A stretch of DNA of 64,000 nucleotides, from assembly GCA_017451385.1 (NCBI GenBank), contig JAFSPS010000008.1, positions 1 through 64,000 of the forward strand. Reading direction: 5' to 3'. This document shows positions 26,923-57,897 of the stretch, piece after piece. The notes under the pieces are model-generated. The model was given only the letters and a program-made list of their open reading frames with translations. It ran no database searches and was not told the origin of the DNA. How positions within the stretch are numbered: position 1 is the stretch's first letter; every line of letters starts with the position of its first letter. This DNA is from Bacteroidales bacterium (GTDB lineage: Bacteria; Bacteroidota; Bacteroidia; Bacteroidales; P3). The translations under genes were made by a program, and so were the position numbers.

Positions 26923-26949
26923 GTTGTTTGGTCGGTTCAGGCCTTGCTG

Positions 26950-27916: not shown

Positions 27917-28363
27917 TTATCGGCGTTCTTTGAAAAACCTTTTCACTATCTCCTCACATTCTTCTTTCAGCACGCCGCCGCACACCTCGGTTTTTGGATG
28001 CAGCATGGTGCGGCCGAGGCGTTCGAAGCCTCGTCGCTCGTCGCTGGCGCCATACACTATGCGGCCTATCTGGCTCCATCCCAGAGCACCGGCACACATC
28101 ACGCAGGGCTCCAGTGTGACGTAGAGGGTGCAGCTGGTGAGGTATTTGGCACCGAGTCCTTCTGTTGCTGCGGTGATGGCCAGCATCTCGGCATGTGCCG
28201 TCACGTCGTGCAGACATTCGGTGTGGTTGTGGCTTCGTGCCAGCAGTGTGTCGCCGCACACCACAATGGCACCTACGGGTATTTCGCCTTCGTCGTAGGC
28301 TGCCTGTGCTTCGCGCAACGCCATCCGCATATAGTATTCATCAGGTCTGTCTATTATGTCCAT
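27917..28363 (-). CDS. tadA: tRNA-specific adenosine deaminase
   Basis: TadA converts A34 to inosine in tRNA-Arg(ACG). The 148-residue protein shows the cytidine-deaminase zinc site HAEM (His57, catalytic Glu59) and EPCVMCAGAL (Cys87 and Cys90), with GEIPVGAIVV in front and a final helix ending VKRFFKERR. Length is normal. The gene lies 80 bases upstream of the nucleotidyltransferase, which has its own promoter in between. Confidence 0.95.
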   Translation of the reverse strand: MDIIDRPDEYYMRMALREAQAAYDEGEIPVGAIVVCGDTLLARSHNHTECLHDVTAHAEMLAITAATEGLGAKYLTSCTLYVTLEPCVMCAGALGWSQIGRIVYGASDERRGFERLGRTMLHPKTEVCGGVLKEECEEIVKRFFKERR

Positions 28364-28420
28364 AAACTTGTTTTAGTTACTAATGTTTCTATGTCACGTA
28401 ATATCTATCTAAATCCTTAA

Positions 28421-28585
28421 TCGGCAAATAATAATGAATTAATTGAAATGTAATGGGCGTTTTATTATGTAAAGATAAACGGCGAATTGTAATGAATTAT
28501 AACGAATTAATTGAAATGTGATTGAGATTATTTGCTATGTAAAGAGAATTGGCGAATGGTGGTGAATTATTGTCGGAATAAGAAA
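28421..28585. repeat. AT-rich tandem repeat with a period of about 70 bp
   Basis: Two full units and part of a third: each begins (T)CGGC(A/G)AAT and carries AATGAATT, ATTGAAATGT and ATGTAAAGA in order. The GGCGAATTGTAATGAATTA part (from 28480) recurs almost base for base in the array at 57660-57700 and, inverted, at 29181-29214. It lies directly behind the GxxExxY pseudogene. Confidence 0.65.
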
Positions 28586-28663
28586 ATCTGAATAATCAAA
28601 AAATATTGTGTAATGATGTTTTTGAAACGGTCAATTAATCTGCAGGTTAATCCATTTTACAGT

Positions 28664-29116
28664 CTAATCTTGGTTTTCGTTGCCCCAAAGGACATTAAGA
28701 TTAACGTCAAGAAGGTGGCATCTGTTCGTCTTTTTATCCCATCCATAGCGGTGGCATTGTGGTTTTTCTTGGCCGAAGTTAAGTAGCAGGCCGATGGGAG
28801 TTTGAGTAAGTCTAAGGTAGTTCAGTAGCTGTTTAGTATGTTGTGGTGTGAATTCCTTAACAGATTTGATTTCTATGATAATATCTTGAACTGAAATGTC
28901 CGCTTGATAGTATTTGTCAAGAAGTCTCCCTTTGTAGAAGCAAGGAATTTTTTGTTCTTGTTGTTTTTTTATTCCTCGTTCGGTTAGTTCTATATGCAGA
29001 GCTTCGTTATAAATGGCTTCTAATAGCCCTCACCCACATTCACGATGAACTTCCATGGCGGCTCCAATGATTCTATATACGATATCTTTGTATTCAGTGA
29101 ATTGATTCAGTGTCAT
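28664..29116 (-). pseudogene. GxxExxY-family nuclease-like protein interrupted by one TGA
   Basis: Read from the ATG at 29116 (MTLNQFTEYKDIVYRIIGAA), the frame is open for 150 codons to a TAG at 28664-28666, except for a single TGA at 29030-29032. The stop falls between the conserved Gly of HRECG and GLLEAIY, that is, directly in front of the family's GxxExxY motif (Gly30, Glu33, Tyr36). Downstream the protein is intact, with ADISVQDIIIEIKSV (the D...ExK arrangement of PD-(D/E)XK nucleases) and QLLNYLRLTQTPIGLLLNFG. Related proteins have Pro or Cys at the TGA position. So the gene is inactivated by one substitution, unless TGA is read through. AT-rich repeats flank it on both sides. Confidence 0.8.
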
Positions 29117-29180
29117 TATGTGTAATATAAAAAGTGCTGTGGATATGGTTTGTGTTGAATATAGAATAATGTGATTGAAA

Positions 29181-29214
29181 AATTCGTTCAAATTCGTTTT
29201 AATTCGCCGAGATA
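29181..29214 (-). repeat. Inverted copy of the GGCGAATT repeat
   Basis: On the minus strand this reads TATCTCGGCGAATTAAAACG followed by AATTTGAACGAATT. The first 14 bases equal the unit starts of the array at 57639-57860. It lies 65 bp upstream of the GxxExxY start and just downstream of the next gene, so the pseudogene is bracketed by members of one repeat family. Confidence 0.6.
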
Positions 29215-29223
29215 AGTATTGCA

Positions 29224-29964
29224 CTAATCGTGTGAGAAGAGGGTGCGGTCGATGGGCAGGAGGCGGGGTGTGTGGAGGAGGGTGGTGCGAAAGGCGTTCT
29301 GCTGATAGGTCTCGTGCGAGATGATAAGACTTTCGCCGAGAGGCAGATATTCATCGATGGAACGCCAATCTACACGGATGGAGGCATCCAACTGCTCGTC
29401 GCCATAGGTGCTCTCTTTCTCCACGAAGAGGAAGAGGAGTCCGCTCTCTTGTTCGAAATAGTACTCGCGGTCGTACATTGATGGCACGGAGGTGGAGACC
29501 CTGTATATGGGATGGCCTTCGAAGGTTGCGGTGCCGCCGTAGATGAGCGTAGTGCCGTTGGTGGCGCGATGGTAGAGCGGTCCGCGGAAGTCGTAGCCCA
29601 CGATGTGGTCGTAGTAGAATATCTCGCTGGCATCCACCCATTGCCGTTGCGCTGCGTCGTAGTGGCGGTAGAGTTTGGTGCCGTCGTTGTGCCATGCGTC
29701 GAACAGCGTGTCGCCATACCATACCTCCACTCTGTAGCTGTTGGGCATGGCATAGTAGCGGCGCACAATGCCCGTGTCGCCCGGCATGGCGGCACTCGTC
29801 ACGAGGGTGGTTATGGCAATCATCTTGTCGTGTGGCAGTGCGTCGTAGTTCATCAGAGCCATATAACGCGCCACGACCCATTCGGCACTGTCTTTCTCCT
29901 GCGCTGCGGCGTTGAGGGCAGCGGCGGAGAGGAGAAGAAGGATAGCAAGGTGTAGGCGTTTCAT
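29224..29964 (-). CDS. Secreted protein of unknown function, possibly LolA-like fold
   Basis: The 246-residue protein has a signal peptide (hydrophobic to about residue 20, cleavage near NAAAQ). The body contains alternating strands with phrases such as SYRVEVWYGDTLFDAWHNDG, GTTLIYGGTATFEGHPIYRV and YYFEQESGLLFLFVEKES, reminiscent of the LolA/outer-membrane lipoprotein-sorting fold in which a sheet binds lipids. The resemblance is by pattern only. It is last in a three-gene minus-strand group after a TPR protein and a DUF4292 lipoprotein, so a role in envelope transport is plausible. Confidence 0.6.
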   Translation of the reverse strand: MKRLHLAILLLLSAAALNAAAQEKDSAEWVVARYMALMNYDALPHDKMIAITTLVTSAAMPGDTGIVRRYYAMPNSYRVEVWYGDTLFDAWHNDGTKLYRHYDAAQRQWVDASEIFYYDHIVGYDFRGPLYHRATNGTTLIYGGTATFEGHPIYRVSTSVPSMYDREYYFEQESGLLFLFVEKESTYGDEQLDASIRVDWRSIDEYLPLGESLIISHETYQQNAFRTTLLHTPRLLPIDRTLFSHD

Positions 29965-56464: not shown

Positions 56465-57634
56465 TTAGAAACACTCTTTGAGCATCTGCAGAACCTCGTC
56501 GGTCGAGGGGACGTGATATCCACCGCATTTGTTGCAGCTTGCGGCAATGAGTGGCAGCATCTCCTCGGTAGTGCCTACCTCGCGCAGCGTCTGCGGGATG
56601 CCGAGTTCGGCGATGAAGCGGCTGAGACATTCGATGCCTTCGAGAGCTATCTGCTCATCGCTCTTGCCATCGGGGTTGACGCCCCAGATGTGGGTGGCGA
56701 AGCGCACGAAGCGGTGCAGTCCGAAGTGGCAGATGTGCCGATAGTAGGGTATGGAGATGATGGCGAGGCCTACGCCGTGAGCACAGTCGGTGTAGGCACC
56801 GAGTTGGTGTTCAATCTGGTGCACCATCCAGTCCTGAGTCTTGGAGAGGGAGAGAATCTTGTTGAGGGCCATGGTGGCACACCACATGATGTTGCTGCGT
56901 GCCTCGTAATCTTCGGGGTTGACGATGGCTTTGCGTGCAGCAGAGATGAGAGCCAGCATGTCACCTTCGAGGAGGTAGTCGCTCGTGCAGTCGTCGGAGC
57001 CGCTGAAGTATTGTTCCATCAGGTGCGAGAAGGTGTCAAAGATGCCGCTGACCATCTGGTAGCGTGGCACGGTGTAGGTGTATTCGGGGTTGAGGATGGA
57101 GAAGCGTGGCGCAAAGGTGGCGAGGGGGAACACGCGTCCTTGCTTGATGGTCTGCTCCTCGTTGGTGATGACGGAGCCGCCGTTCATCTCGGAGGCGGTG
57201 CCTGTCATGGTGAGCACGGTGCCAATGGGCACTACGGTGCCTTCCACCTCTTCGCCTTGCATCCAGTAGCGCGTCCACGGGTCGCCATGCGTGCATGCCG
57301 CTGCTGCCGCTATGCCTTTTGAGCAGTCAATGACGGAGCCACCGCCAACGGCAAGGATGAGGTCTATGTGTTGCTCGCGCACTATCTTTGCTCCTGCCAG
57401 CACCTGCGCATAGGTGGGGTTGGACTTGATGCCTGCCAGCTCGCTGACATTCTTGCCTGTGGCTTGCATGGCGGCAAGGACGGTATCATATATGCCGTTG
57501 TTCTTGATGGAGTTGCGGCCATATACCAGCAGGATGTTGCGTCCGTAGTTGTTCAGCTCGGTAGTCAGGTGTTGCATGGCGCTGCGTCCGAAGTGGATGC
57601 GTGTAGGGTTCTCGTAGGTAAAGTCGTATATCAT
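56465..57634 (-). CDS. Iron-containing alcohol dehydrogenase (YqhD/BdhA type)
   Basis: NAD(P)H-dependent group III dehydrogenase that reduces aldehydes. The 389-residue protein has the nucleotide loop VGGGSVIDCSKGIA (GGGS at 97-100), and the metal ligands Asp200 and His204 (GIFDTFSHLMEQYF), His276 (IEHQLGA) and His286 (CAHGVGLA), which correspond to D194, H198, H267 and H281 of E. coli YqhD. GTASEMNGGSVITN is also typical. It is monocistronic, with the AT-rich repeat array directly upstream. Physiological substrate unknown. Confidence 0.93.
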   Translation of the reverse strand: MIYDFTYENPTRIHFGRSAMQHLTTELNNYGRNILLVYGRNSIKNNGIYDTVLAAMQATGKNVSELAGIKSNPTYAQVLAGAKIVREQHIDLILAVGGGSVIDCSKGIAAAAACTHGDPWTRYWMQGEEVEGTVVPIGTVLTMTGTASEMNGGSVITNEEQTIKQGRVFPLATFAPRFSILNPEYTYTVPRYQMVSGIFDTFSHLMEQYFSGSDDCTSDYLLEGDMLALISAARKAIVNPEDYEARSNIMWCATMALNKILSLSKTQDWMVHQIEHQLGAYTDCAHGVGLAIISIPYYRHICHFGLHRFVRFATHIWGVNPDGKSDEQIALEGIECLSRFIAELGIPQTLREVGTTEEMLPLIAASCNKCGGYHVPSTDEVLQMLKECF

Positions 57635-57638
57635 TGTT

Positions 57639-57860
57639 TTATCTCGGTTATTTTTTTTGTTATCTCGGCGAATTGTAATTAATTATAACGAATTGTTTTG
57701 TCTTGGTTAATTACAATTAATTATGTTTAATTATTTTCGGTTGATTATTATCTCGGCGAATTAGAATTAATTATGACGAATTGTTTTTATCCCGGGTAAT
57801 TATTTTTTTTATCTCGGTTAATTACAATTAATTATGTTTATATCTCGGTTAGTTATAACG
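57639..57860. repeat. Degenerate AT-rich repeat array (TATCTCGGCGAATT units)
   Basis: At least five units start TATCTCGG(C/T): at about 57640, 57661, 57750, 57811 and 57841. Two continue GCGAATT-RNAATTAATTAT-RACGAATTGTTTT; others continue TTAATTACAATTAATTATG, which is largely the inverse complement of the first kind. One unit matches the array at 28480-28510 at 28 of 29 bases. The array fills the gap between two minus-strand genes and overlaps the leader of the dehydrogenase gene. Confidence 0.7.
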
Positions 57861-57897
57861 GGGTTGTTTTGTTTGATTTTCGGTGGATTGCAATGGA

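Follow-up and report, generated by a model that had tools for sequence, protein, structure and literature searches.

Inverted cognate repeats at GxxExxY nuclease-like genes of Bacteroidales suggest a minimal mobile unit

A GxxExxY gene between repeats

The DNA analysed here (hereafter the window) is a stretch of 64,000 nucleotides from a Bacteroidales bacterium (contig JAFSPS010000008.1). In it, a GxxExxY nuclease-like gene with one in-frame stop codon lies among repeats between a tadA-like gene and a gene of 246 aa, and a further array of the same repeat family is found elsewhere in it. The features are as follows.

26923..26949, no strand: empty site (gap between ORF calls) for a different unit, of clade c10, which is found between the same two genes in six relatives
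27917..28363, minus strand: left-border gene of the deaminase family, called tadA (PF14437, PF00383); syntenic in relatives
28364..29223, no strand: whole inserted unit, 860 bp, from the tadA-like gene to the 246-aa gene (from the spacer in relatives and from GC content)
28421..28585, no strand: array on the 3' side of the GxxExxY gene, diverged repeat units (direct repeats within 28427-28570; pattern match at 28479-28508)
28480..28508, plus strand: best-kept inverted arm, 3' side of the gene, complementary to 29181-29209
28664..29116, minus strand: GxxExxY (PDDEXK_3) nuclease-like gene, stop codon included (TIGR04256, PF13366)
29030..29032, minus strand: in-frame TGA immediately ahead of the GxxExxY motif (translation)
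29181..29214, minus strand: inverted arm, 5' side of the gene, with three CGAATT spaced 10 bp apart following TCTCGG (sequence; inverted repeat; pattern match at 29181-29210 on the minus strand)
29224..29964, minus strand: right-border gene, 246 aa, no Pfam match (Pfam scan; synteny)
57630..57889, plus strand: gene-less array of the window repeat family (the pattern matches exactly at 57665 and again at 57753)

A preliminary description, made from the letters of the window, had reported a 150-codon frame broken by one TGA directly before the GxxExxY motif, with the D...E-x-K region intact. Translation confirms this: the frame runs on the minus strand from 29116 to 28664, its single TGA lies at 29032-29030, and D...E-x-K is intact 3' of it. 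Membership of the GxxExxY family is clear, as the curated cut-offs of both models are passed (TIGR04256, 133.5 bits against a cut-off of 35, the search tool having read through the stop; PF13366 on the piece after the TGA, 102.6 bits against 22, E 2.3e-29), and the motif and the catalytic D and ExK are present. A Pfam scan of the post-TGA piece at E<=0.001 returned PF13366 only, with no HUH/Y1 or known transposase domain. Intact relatives of the gene exist; the window copy, with its one TGA, does not have an intact reading frame.

The residue column at the position of the TGA varies among relatives, TGA terminates 4 of the 36 long window ORFs that were taken as genes, and seven above-cut-off TIGR04256 matches among those listed in the genus carry stops, the window copy included. 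Because the column is variable, TGA is used as a normal stop and decayed copies are frequent, the simplest reading is a recent nonsense change or an assembly error, in agreement with the earlier preference for a nonsense mutation. Readthrough or recoding of the TGA is disfavoured by the variable column and by the use of TGA as a stop in this genome.

Across 15 diverse GxxExxY members, the G, E and Y of the motif and a further D, E, K, Q and Y are invariant, and the catalytic K is nearly invariant in a set of 31 members. We take the D, E, K, Q and Y to be a RecB/Cas4-type active site. A search for a relative of solved structure, with one intact GxxExxY protein as query, found none at E up to 10, and a PHROGs search gave weak hits only. 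We also considered a defence gene and rejected it, as PADLOC matches were weak only (an RT-linked nuclease domain was the best, at E 1.5e-4, with Cas4 at about 1e-3).

The repeats were also found where they had been described, behind the gene, inverted in front of it and in a larger array near 57639-57860, by direct-repeat, inverted-repeat and pattern matches. The inverted pair at 28480-28508 and 29181-29209 spans 29 nt and is 83% complementary. A 30-nt pattern of the window repeat, allowing up to three mismatches, has 12 matches in the genome on five contigs (four of them in the window), and its reversed control has none. Orphan arrays, as had been supposed, do occur elsewhere: gene-less arrays lie in the window and on contigs C8, C19, C27 and C41 of the same genome, and a TIGR04256 search placed the GxxExxY matches of this genome on C32 and C28 only.

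Two side observations concern the same genome. Its second GxxExxY gene (L015:2045-2540, on C28) is intact and has inverted flanks of 9-bp CGAAAG-type units, which are unlike the window repeat. At L016:2060-2380, on a contig without a GxxExxY match, a window-family compound repeat of 92-93 bp stands in four tandem copies.

Insertion of the units between genes

Whereas the spacer between the tadA-like gene and the next gene is -4 to 64 bp in 29/29 relatives, it is 860 bp in the window (in-frame scan). The 29 relatives were those read of 57 with a match; the next gene was the 246-aa gene in 27 of them and another gene in two (L141, L154). The insert has a GC content of 0.336, the whole window one of 0.504. 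Since the flanking genes lie so close together in all of these relatives, the comparison supports the window gene and its repeats being one inserted unit.

Other units of the family lie at other junctions. Adjacent to the window unit, at the ntp/p398 junction, a GxxExxY unit of clade c10 is present in six genomes (G006, G007, G009, G015, G036 and G045) and also in G042. These two genes are 27 bp apart in the window genome; in 17 relatives that lack the unit, the gap ranges from -14 to 259 bp, making this a less tight empty site. A unit of clade c4 splits a 260-aa gene in six genomes (L040, L055, L044, L047, L062 and L100), while six other loci have it uninterrupted and complete; the split copies lack an inner part, so the comparison does not give a clean empty site. 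Among the compared relatives, whose spacers are too diverged, neither a target-site duplication nor a base-exact empty site was found. Several of the shared insertion sites may be inherited instead of reflecting independent insertions.

Inverted repeats at GxxExxY genes in other genomes

We found TIGR04256 matches in 43/59 genus genomes, with up to seven per genome, and GxxExxY matches in 39 of 80 genomes sampled from the phylum. At each locus, the two 250-bp flanks were compared in the inverted sense and scored against 199 dinucleotide shuffles, which were used as the null because a null of mismatched flanks is contaminated by the repeats that loci of the same clade share. From the 104 listed matches, 85 entered the genus set (the best-scoring 86 minus G023:C27, which covers 86 positions); the remainder were fragments or weak.

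Inverted flanks were significant (p<=0.05) at 76/85 genus loci vs 18/160 pseudo-gene controls placed alongside, and reached p 0.005 at 70/85 vs 4/160, with the reservations that the pseudo-gene controls are mostly coding DNA and that the shuffles correct for composition but not for all features of intergenic DNA. The nine genus loci without significant inverted flanks were L030, L031, L042, L045, L048, L050, L058, L066 and L073. At the window gene itself (L001), the inverted likeness of the flanks exceeded all 199 shuffles (p 0.005), although its arms are weak, with a score of 19 against a genus median of 26.5. Ordinary genes seldom had significant inverted flanks: 2/32 long window ORFs (four ORFs beside arrays being left out) and 1/27 tadA genes (2/29 loci being dropped as short). 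Likeness in the direct sense was seen at 30/85 genus loci vs 22/160 controls, an excess to which the palindromic or tandem make-up of many arms contributes.

A similar picture was obtained outside this set. Among 43 named relatives, found with one intact protein as query and overlapping the genus set (at least L195, L197, L199 and L205 belong to the genomes G040, G054, G041 and G028, respectively), inverted flanks were significant at 36 vs 7/77 controls, leaving seven that were not. The significant loci include those of isolates such as Prevotella communis E15-14 and of bins assigned to Neisseriaceae, WOR-3, Chitinophagaceae and Calditrichia, where units like CACAGAG occur; at the loci labelled Opitutia and Desulfuromusa, the inverted-sense flanks were not significant. 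In the phylum sample (the best match from each of 30 genomes, out of the 39 with a match), 25/30 loci were significant vs 6/59 controls, and 5/30 were not. Short CACAGAG-like units were also noticed beside GxxExxY genes in several Bacteroidota families, a Chitinophagaceae bin and a Calditrichia bin (L233, L234, L342-L352).

The preliminary description had predicted that repeats like TATCTCGGCGAATT would be enriched next to GxxExxY genes. Taken literally, this failed: the window pattern occurs in 1/59 genus genomes and is absent from the other 58. The window repeat is thereby ruled out as a general GxxExxY repeat, the nuclease clades having units of their own. In its general form, that GxxExxY genes carry their own inverted repeats, the prediction is borne out by the genus and phylum counts above.

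Repeats and proteins diverge together

If each clade has its own repeat, similarity between arms should follow similarity between proteins. Among 3331 pairs of loci from different genomes and non-syntenic sites, same-sense arm similarity declines with protein distance (rho -0.32, permutation p 0.001 with 999 permutations; 166 pairs with similar outer flanks were set aside). The median same-sense arm score falls from 29 at distances below 0.2 to 19 (0.2-0.35), 13 (0.35-0.5), 11 (0.5-0.6) and 10.5 (0.6-0.8), while the opposite-sense score is nearly flat (10-11.5, rho -0.08).

Clade c10, whose proteins read EIRG or QIRG, provides a particular case, with the units AATCYTGGAAATCYTGGAAAT / AATCTTGG. 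Allowing one mismatch, the c10 pattern occurs in 12/59 genomes, and control patterns gave no match. It is present in 7/8 genomes with an intact EIRG/QIRG gene vs 5/51 without one (p 1.7e-5), whereas Y1 transposase genes do not predict it (9/40 genomes with Y1 vs 3/19 without, p 0.73). The pairing is not complete, as an intact cognate gene is missing in 4/12 pattern-bearing genomes (counting any c10 gene) or 5/12 (counting the EIRG/QIRG gene). Of these last five, G004 and G055 retain gene fragments next to the pattern, an EVRG gene is present in G002, and G012 and G054 have none among the listed matches.

These comparisons support the nuclease and its repeat being cognate, with each protein clade having its own repeat and both diverging together. 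The earlier idea that the repeat family and the gene form one unit thus stands in part: the two behave as one insertion and are cognate, but TATCTCGGCGAATT is not a repeat common to GxxExxY genes.

Anatomy of the ends

GxxExxY ends often consist of units of 9-10 bp, accompanied in several clades by a small hairpin. The best period (z>=4) was 9 bp in 30/170 arms and 10 bp in 8/170, compared with 2/170 and 0/170 in the control; the majority of the 170 arms have no period at z>=4.

In clade c3, the ends have a 9-bp hairpin around ACA on each side, with left GAAACGCC/GGCGTTTC and right GAAAACGC/GCGTTTTC and minor variants, present in 7/7 left arms and 6/7 right arms (the search required such a loop and pairing). 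The left and right types differ by paired changes, so that both the pairing and the identity of each side are preserved, and their common loop lies on opposite strands. Because the two sides differ yet remain self-paired, with the loop on opposite strands, this pattern speaks for DNA, perhaps in single-stranded form, being what is recognised. In clade c10, the left-type hairpin was found in 6/14 units, exclusively on the 5' side, and the right-type hairpin on the 3' side in 8/14 units and in a single case on the 5' side. The c10 hairpin expressions fail to fit the six EVRG units.

Gene-less mini-elements and in-frame copies

The c10 pattern has 30 sites, of which 13 are beside a GxxExxY gene or fragment and 17 are not. 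At the ntp/p398 junction, the aligned genes are 217 bp apart in G054, where both ends but no gene are present, and 850 bp apart in G042, which has a full unit. Aligned to each other, the two differ by one extra 584-bp block containing the gene in G042; either may be the older form. Among the mini-elements examined for their ends, the left type was at the left in 9/9 and the right type at the right in 7/9.

Some of these elements lie within reading frames. A 45-aa reading of one c10 mini-element has matches at E 0.01 in 21/120 genomes, some of them weak. We inspected 21 of the 34 listed matches together with L172; of these 22 loci, 14 have the insert in the interior of a conserved gene and 5 have it as an N-terminal extension, 2 are doubtful and 1 is L172 itself. 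Eight of the 14 proteins with interior inserts were scanned and have as best NCBIfam matches MnmA, QueG, Mfd, non-canonical purine NTP diphosphatase, FolC, CCA tRNA nucleotidyltransferase, MtaB and TcdA, with MnmA, FolC and MtaB passing the curated NCBIfam cut-off and the other five below it. In 56 genomes, MnmA is uninterrupted in 43, split in one frame by an insert in 9 and partially matched in 4. A comparison of 40 MnmA loci, nine of them chosen for being split, revealed loop inserts (L298-L306, L239) of several unrelated repeat families in different genomes, c10 included. Since inserts of several families are found there, the sequences indicate that the MnmA loop is a tolerant site and that in-frame settlement is not special to the c10 family.

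Possible mechanism and alternative explanations

We propose, with a probability of roughly 0.65, that GxxExxY genes supply the protein of minimal mobile units, each consisting of a stand-alone RecB/Cas4-like nuclease and its cognate inverted ends. The proposal draws on what can be read in the sequences: inverted cognate ends, insertion at tight junctions, gene-less derivatives, in-frame copies and conserved catalytic residues. A unit would comprise one small PD-(D/E)XK nuclease gene of RecB/Cas4 type bounded by two inverted ends. Each end would typically repeat a unit of 9-10 bp, close to one turn of DNA, in a short array, with a small hairpin in several clades, and the ends would diverge together with the protein. 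Most likely, the GxxExxY protein would bind the unit array and cut at or near the ends, and host repair or strand transfer would then copy or move the unit or a gene-less derivative. Self-targeting, in the sense of a nuclease cutting its own repeats as suggested at the outset, is plausible. Gene-less derivatives keeping both ends would be mini-elements, like the MITEs of an insertion sequence or the REPs of a RAYT, some of which appear to have settled in frame within conserved genes. As part of this explanation, the window copy, with its TGA and degenerate left array, is probably a decaying member of such a unit, with orphan arrays elsewhere.

The strongest alternative, although in our view the less likely one, is a homing-type route, in which the nuclease cuts empty sites or gene-less arrays and host repair copies the unit in, in the manner of a gene drive, rather than by transposase-like excision and insertion. 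Such a route fits the nuclease-type catalytic residues, the lack of a second Pfam domain in the scanned piece, the c10 units at one ntp/p398 site in six genomes, and the recurrence of in-frame copies across genomes at identical positions of CCA-transferase, MtaB, Mfd and MnmA. However, shared sites can be inherited, and units of one clade are also found at unrelated sites; homing and transposition fit these data alike. It is improbable that the repeats are moved by a different enzyme, be it RAYT/Y1, an IS transposase or that of the four-helix-bundle units, with GxxExxY genes as mere hitchhikers. Y1 genes are indeed present in 40/59 genomes and similar inverted arrays occur at four-helix-bundle genes, but the repeat identity tracks the GxxExxY clade, the c10 pattern tracks the c10 gene and not Y1 (the only transposase compared), G042 has the most c10 sites in the sample without a Y1 match, and the four-helix arrays are mostly of 7-bp rather than 9-bp units. 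RAYT as the mover is disfavoured on the same association of the c10 pattern with its gene.

The arrays could also be regulatory or protective, bound by the protein as operators for its own expression or for local DNA structure and not as ends, and in many loci they do lie near the start codon. We see little chance of this, given that an inverted copy is also found 3' of the gene, that gene-less copies with both ends occur elsewhere and within coding genes, and that the window unit is inserted as a whole. Slimmer still is the chance of an RNA-level element, whose inverted arms would pair in the transcript and bracket the mRNA, even though inverted arms around a small gene recall the intervening sequences of 23S rRNA with their S23 gene. 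The c3 left and right hairpins differ yet self-pair, with a shared loop on opposite strands, which favours recognition of DNA, and gene-less elements keep both ends.

Comparison with known systems

By design, the nearest system is the REPtron (TnpA-REP/RAYT with REP/BIME). As characterised in PMC8266576, REPtrons have a gene for a small protein between inverted hairpin repeats, scattered gene-less copies, and repeats that co-evolve with the protein; the same source states that evidence for mobility of tnpA-REP is lacking. GxxExxY genes likewise have inverted cognate repeats and scattered gene-less copies. They differ in that the protein is PD-(D/E)XK-like and not an HUH/Y1 transposase, the ends are arrays of 9-10 bp units, a single genome of the genus can have as many as seven of the genes, and gene and ends seem to travel together. 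Nearest by in-frame habit are the Rickettsia palindromic elements, of about 150 bp, palindromic and in frame in unrelated conserved genes (PMC10969869). It is the c10 mini-elements, not the window repeat, that sit in frame in conserved genes, and for GxxExxY, unlike the Rickettsia elements, a gene-bearing unit with the same ends exists.

With MITEs and insertion sequences, the GxxExxY units share inverted ends and a gene-less derivative at the same site as a full unit with those ends (G054 vs G042). In contrast to insertion sequences, the gene has no known transposase domain, and no target-site duplication could be read, the spacers of relatives being too diverged. The invariant D, E-x-K and Q-x3-Y and the weak PADLOC Cas4 matches (E about 1e-3) are reminiscent of Cas4/RecB. 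Cas4 proteins have four conserved cysteines, whereas no cysteine is among the invariant or nearly invariant columns of GxxExxY, which is also short and stand-alone.

Intervening sequences of rRNA have inverted arms around the gene of a small S23 protein. Those of 23S rRNA, with their S23/four-helix-bundle gene, resemble the GxxExxY units as a small gene between inverted repeats. However, the window unit lies between two protein genes and not in 23S rRNA, the protein family is different, and the units are mostly of 9-10 bp vs 7 bp. Four-helix-bundle genes (TIGR02436) have matches in 58/59 genus genomes. Of 30 such loci (L312-L341), three were dropped for short flanks, and 22 of the 27 tested had inverted flanks at p<=0.05. 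Their arms consist mostly of 7-bp units (mean z of 6.7 at lag 7 for 46 roughly placed arms). These genes are possibly a second, parallel class of unit. Repeats of 7 bp have been described as having no evident mechanism of spread (PMC4679880), and would concern this parallel class.

Significance

GxxExxY genes are common, and we know of no role assigned to the family. Its pairing with private repeats suggests a function that can be put to the test, namely action on its own ends. In open-licence PMC papers, represented mostly by titles and the beginnings of abstracts, no report of a pairing between GxxExxY genes and repeats was found. The family also offers a candidate mobiliser for gene-less intergenic arrays of short units and for in-frame palindromic elements of the kind known from Rickettsia. 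If the nuclease reads the unit array by its sequence, the ten clusters with different units would be a natural set from which to learn the code.

More tentatively, at somewhat less than even odds, GxxExxY units may constitute an undescribed, multi-phylum class of smallest autonomous mobile elements, with one RecB/Cas4-like nuclease and cognate hairpin-iteron ends, moving without a known transposase, and spawning protein-coding palindromic mini-elements, while the four-helix-bundle genes with 7-bp arrays would be a parallel second class. If true, the two classes would explain much of the orphan short-period arrays in Bacteroidota and other phyla.
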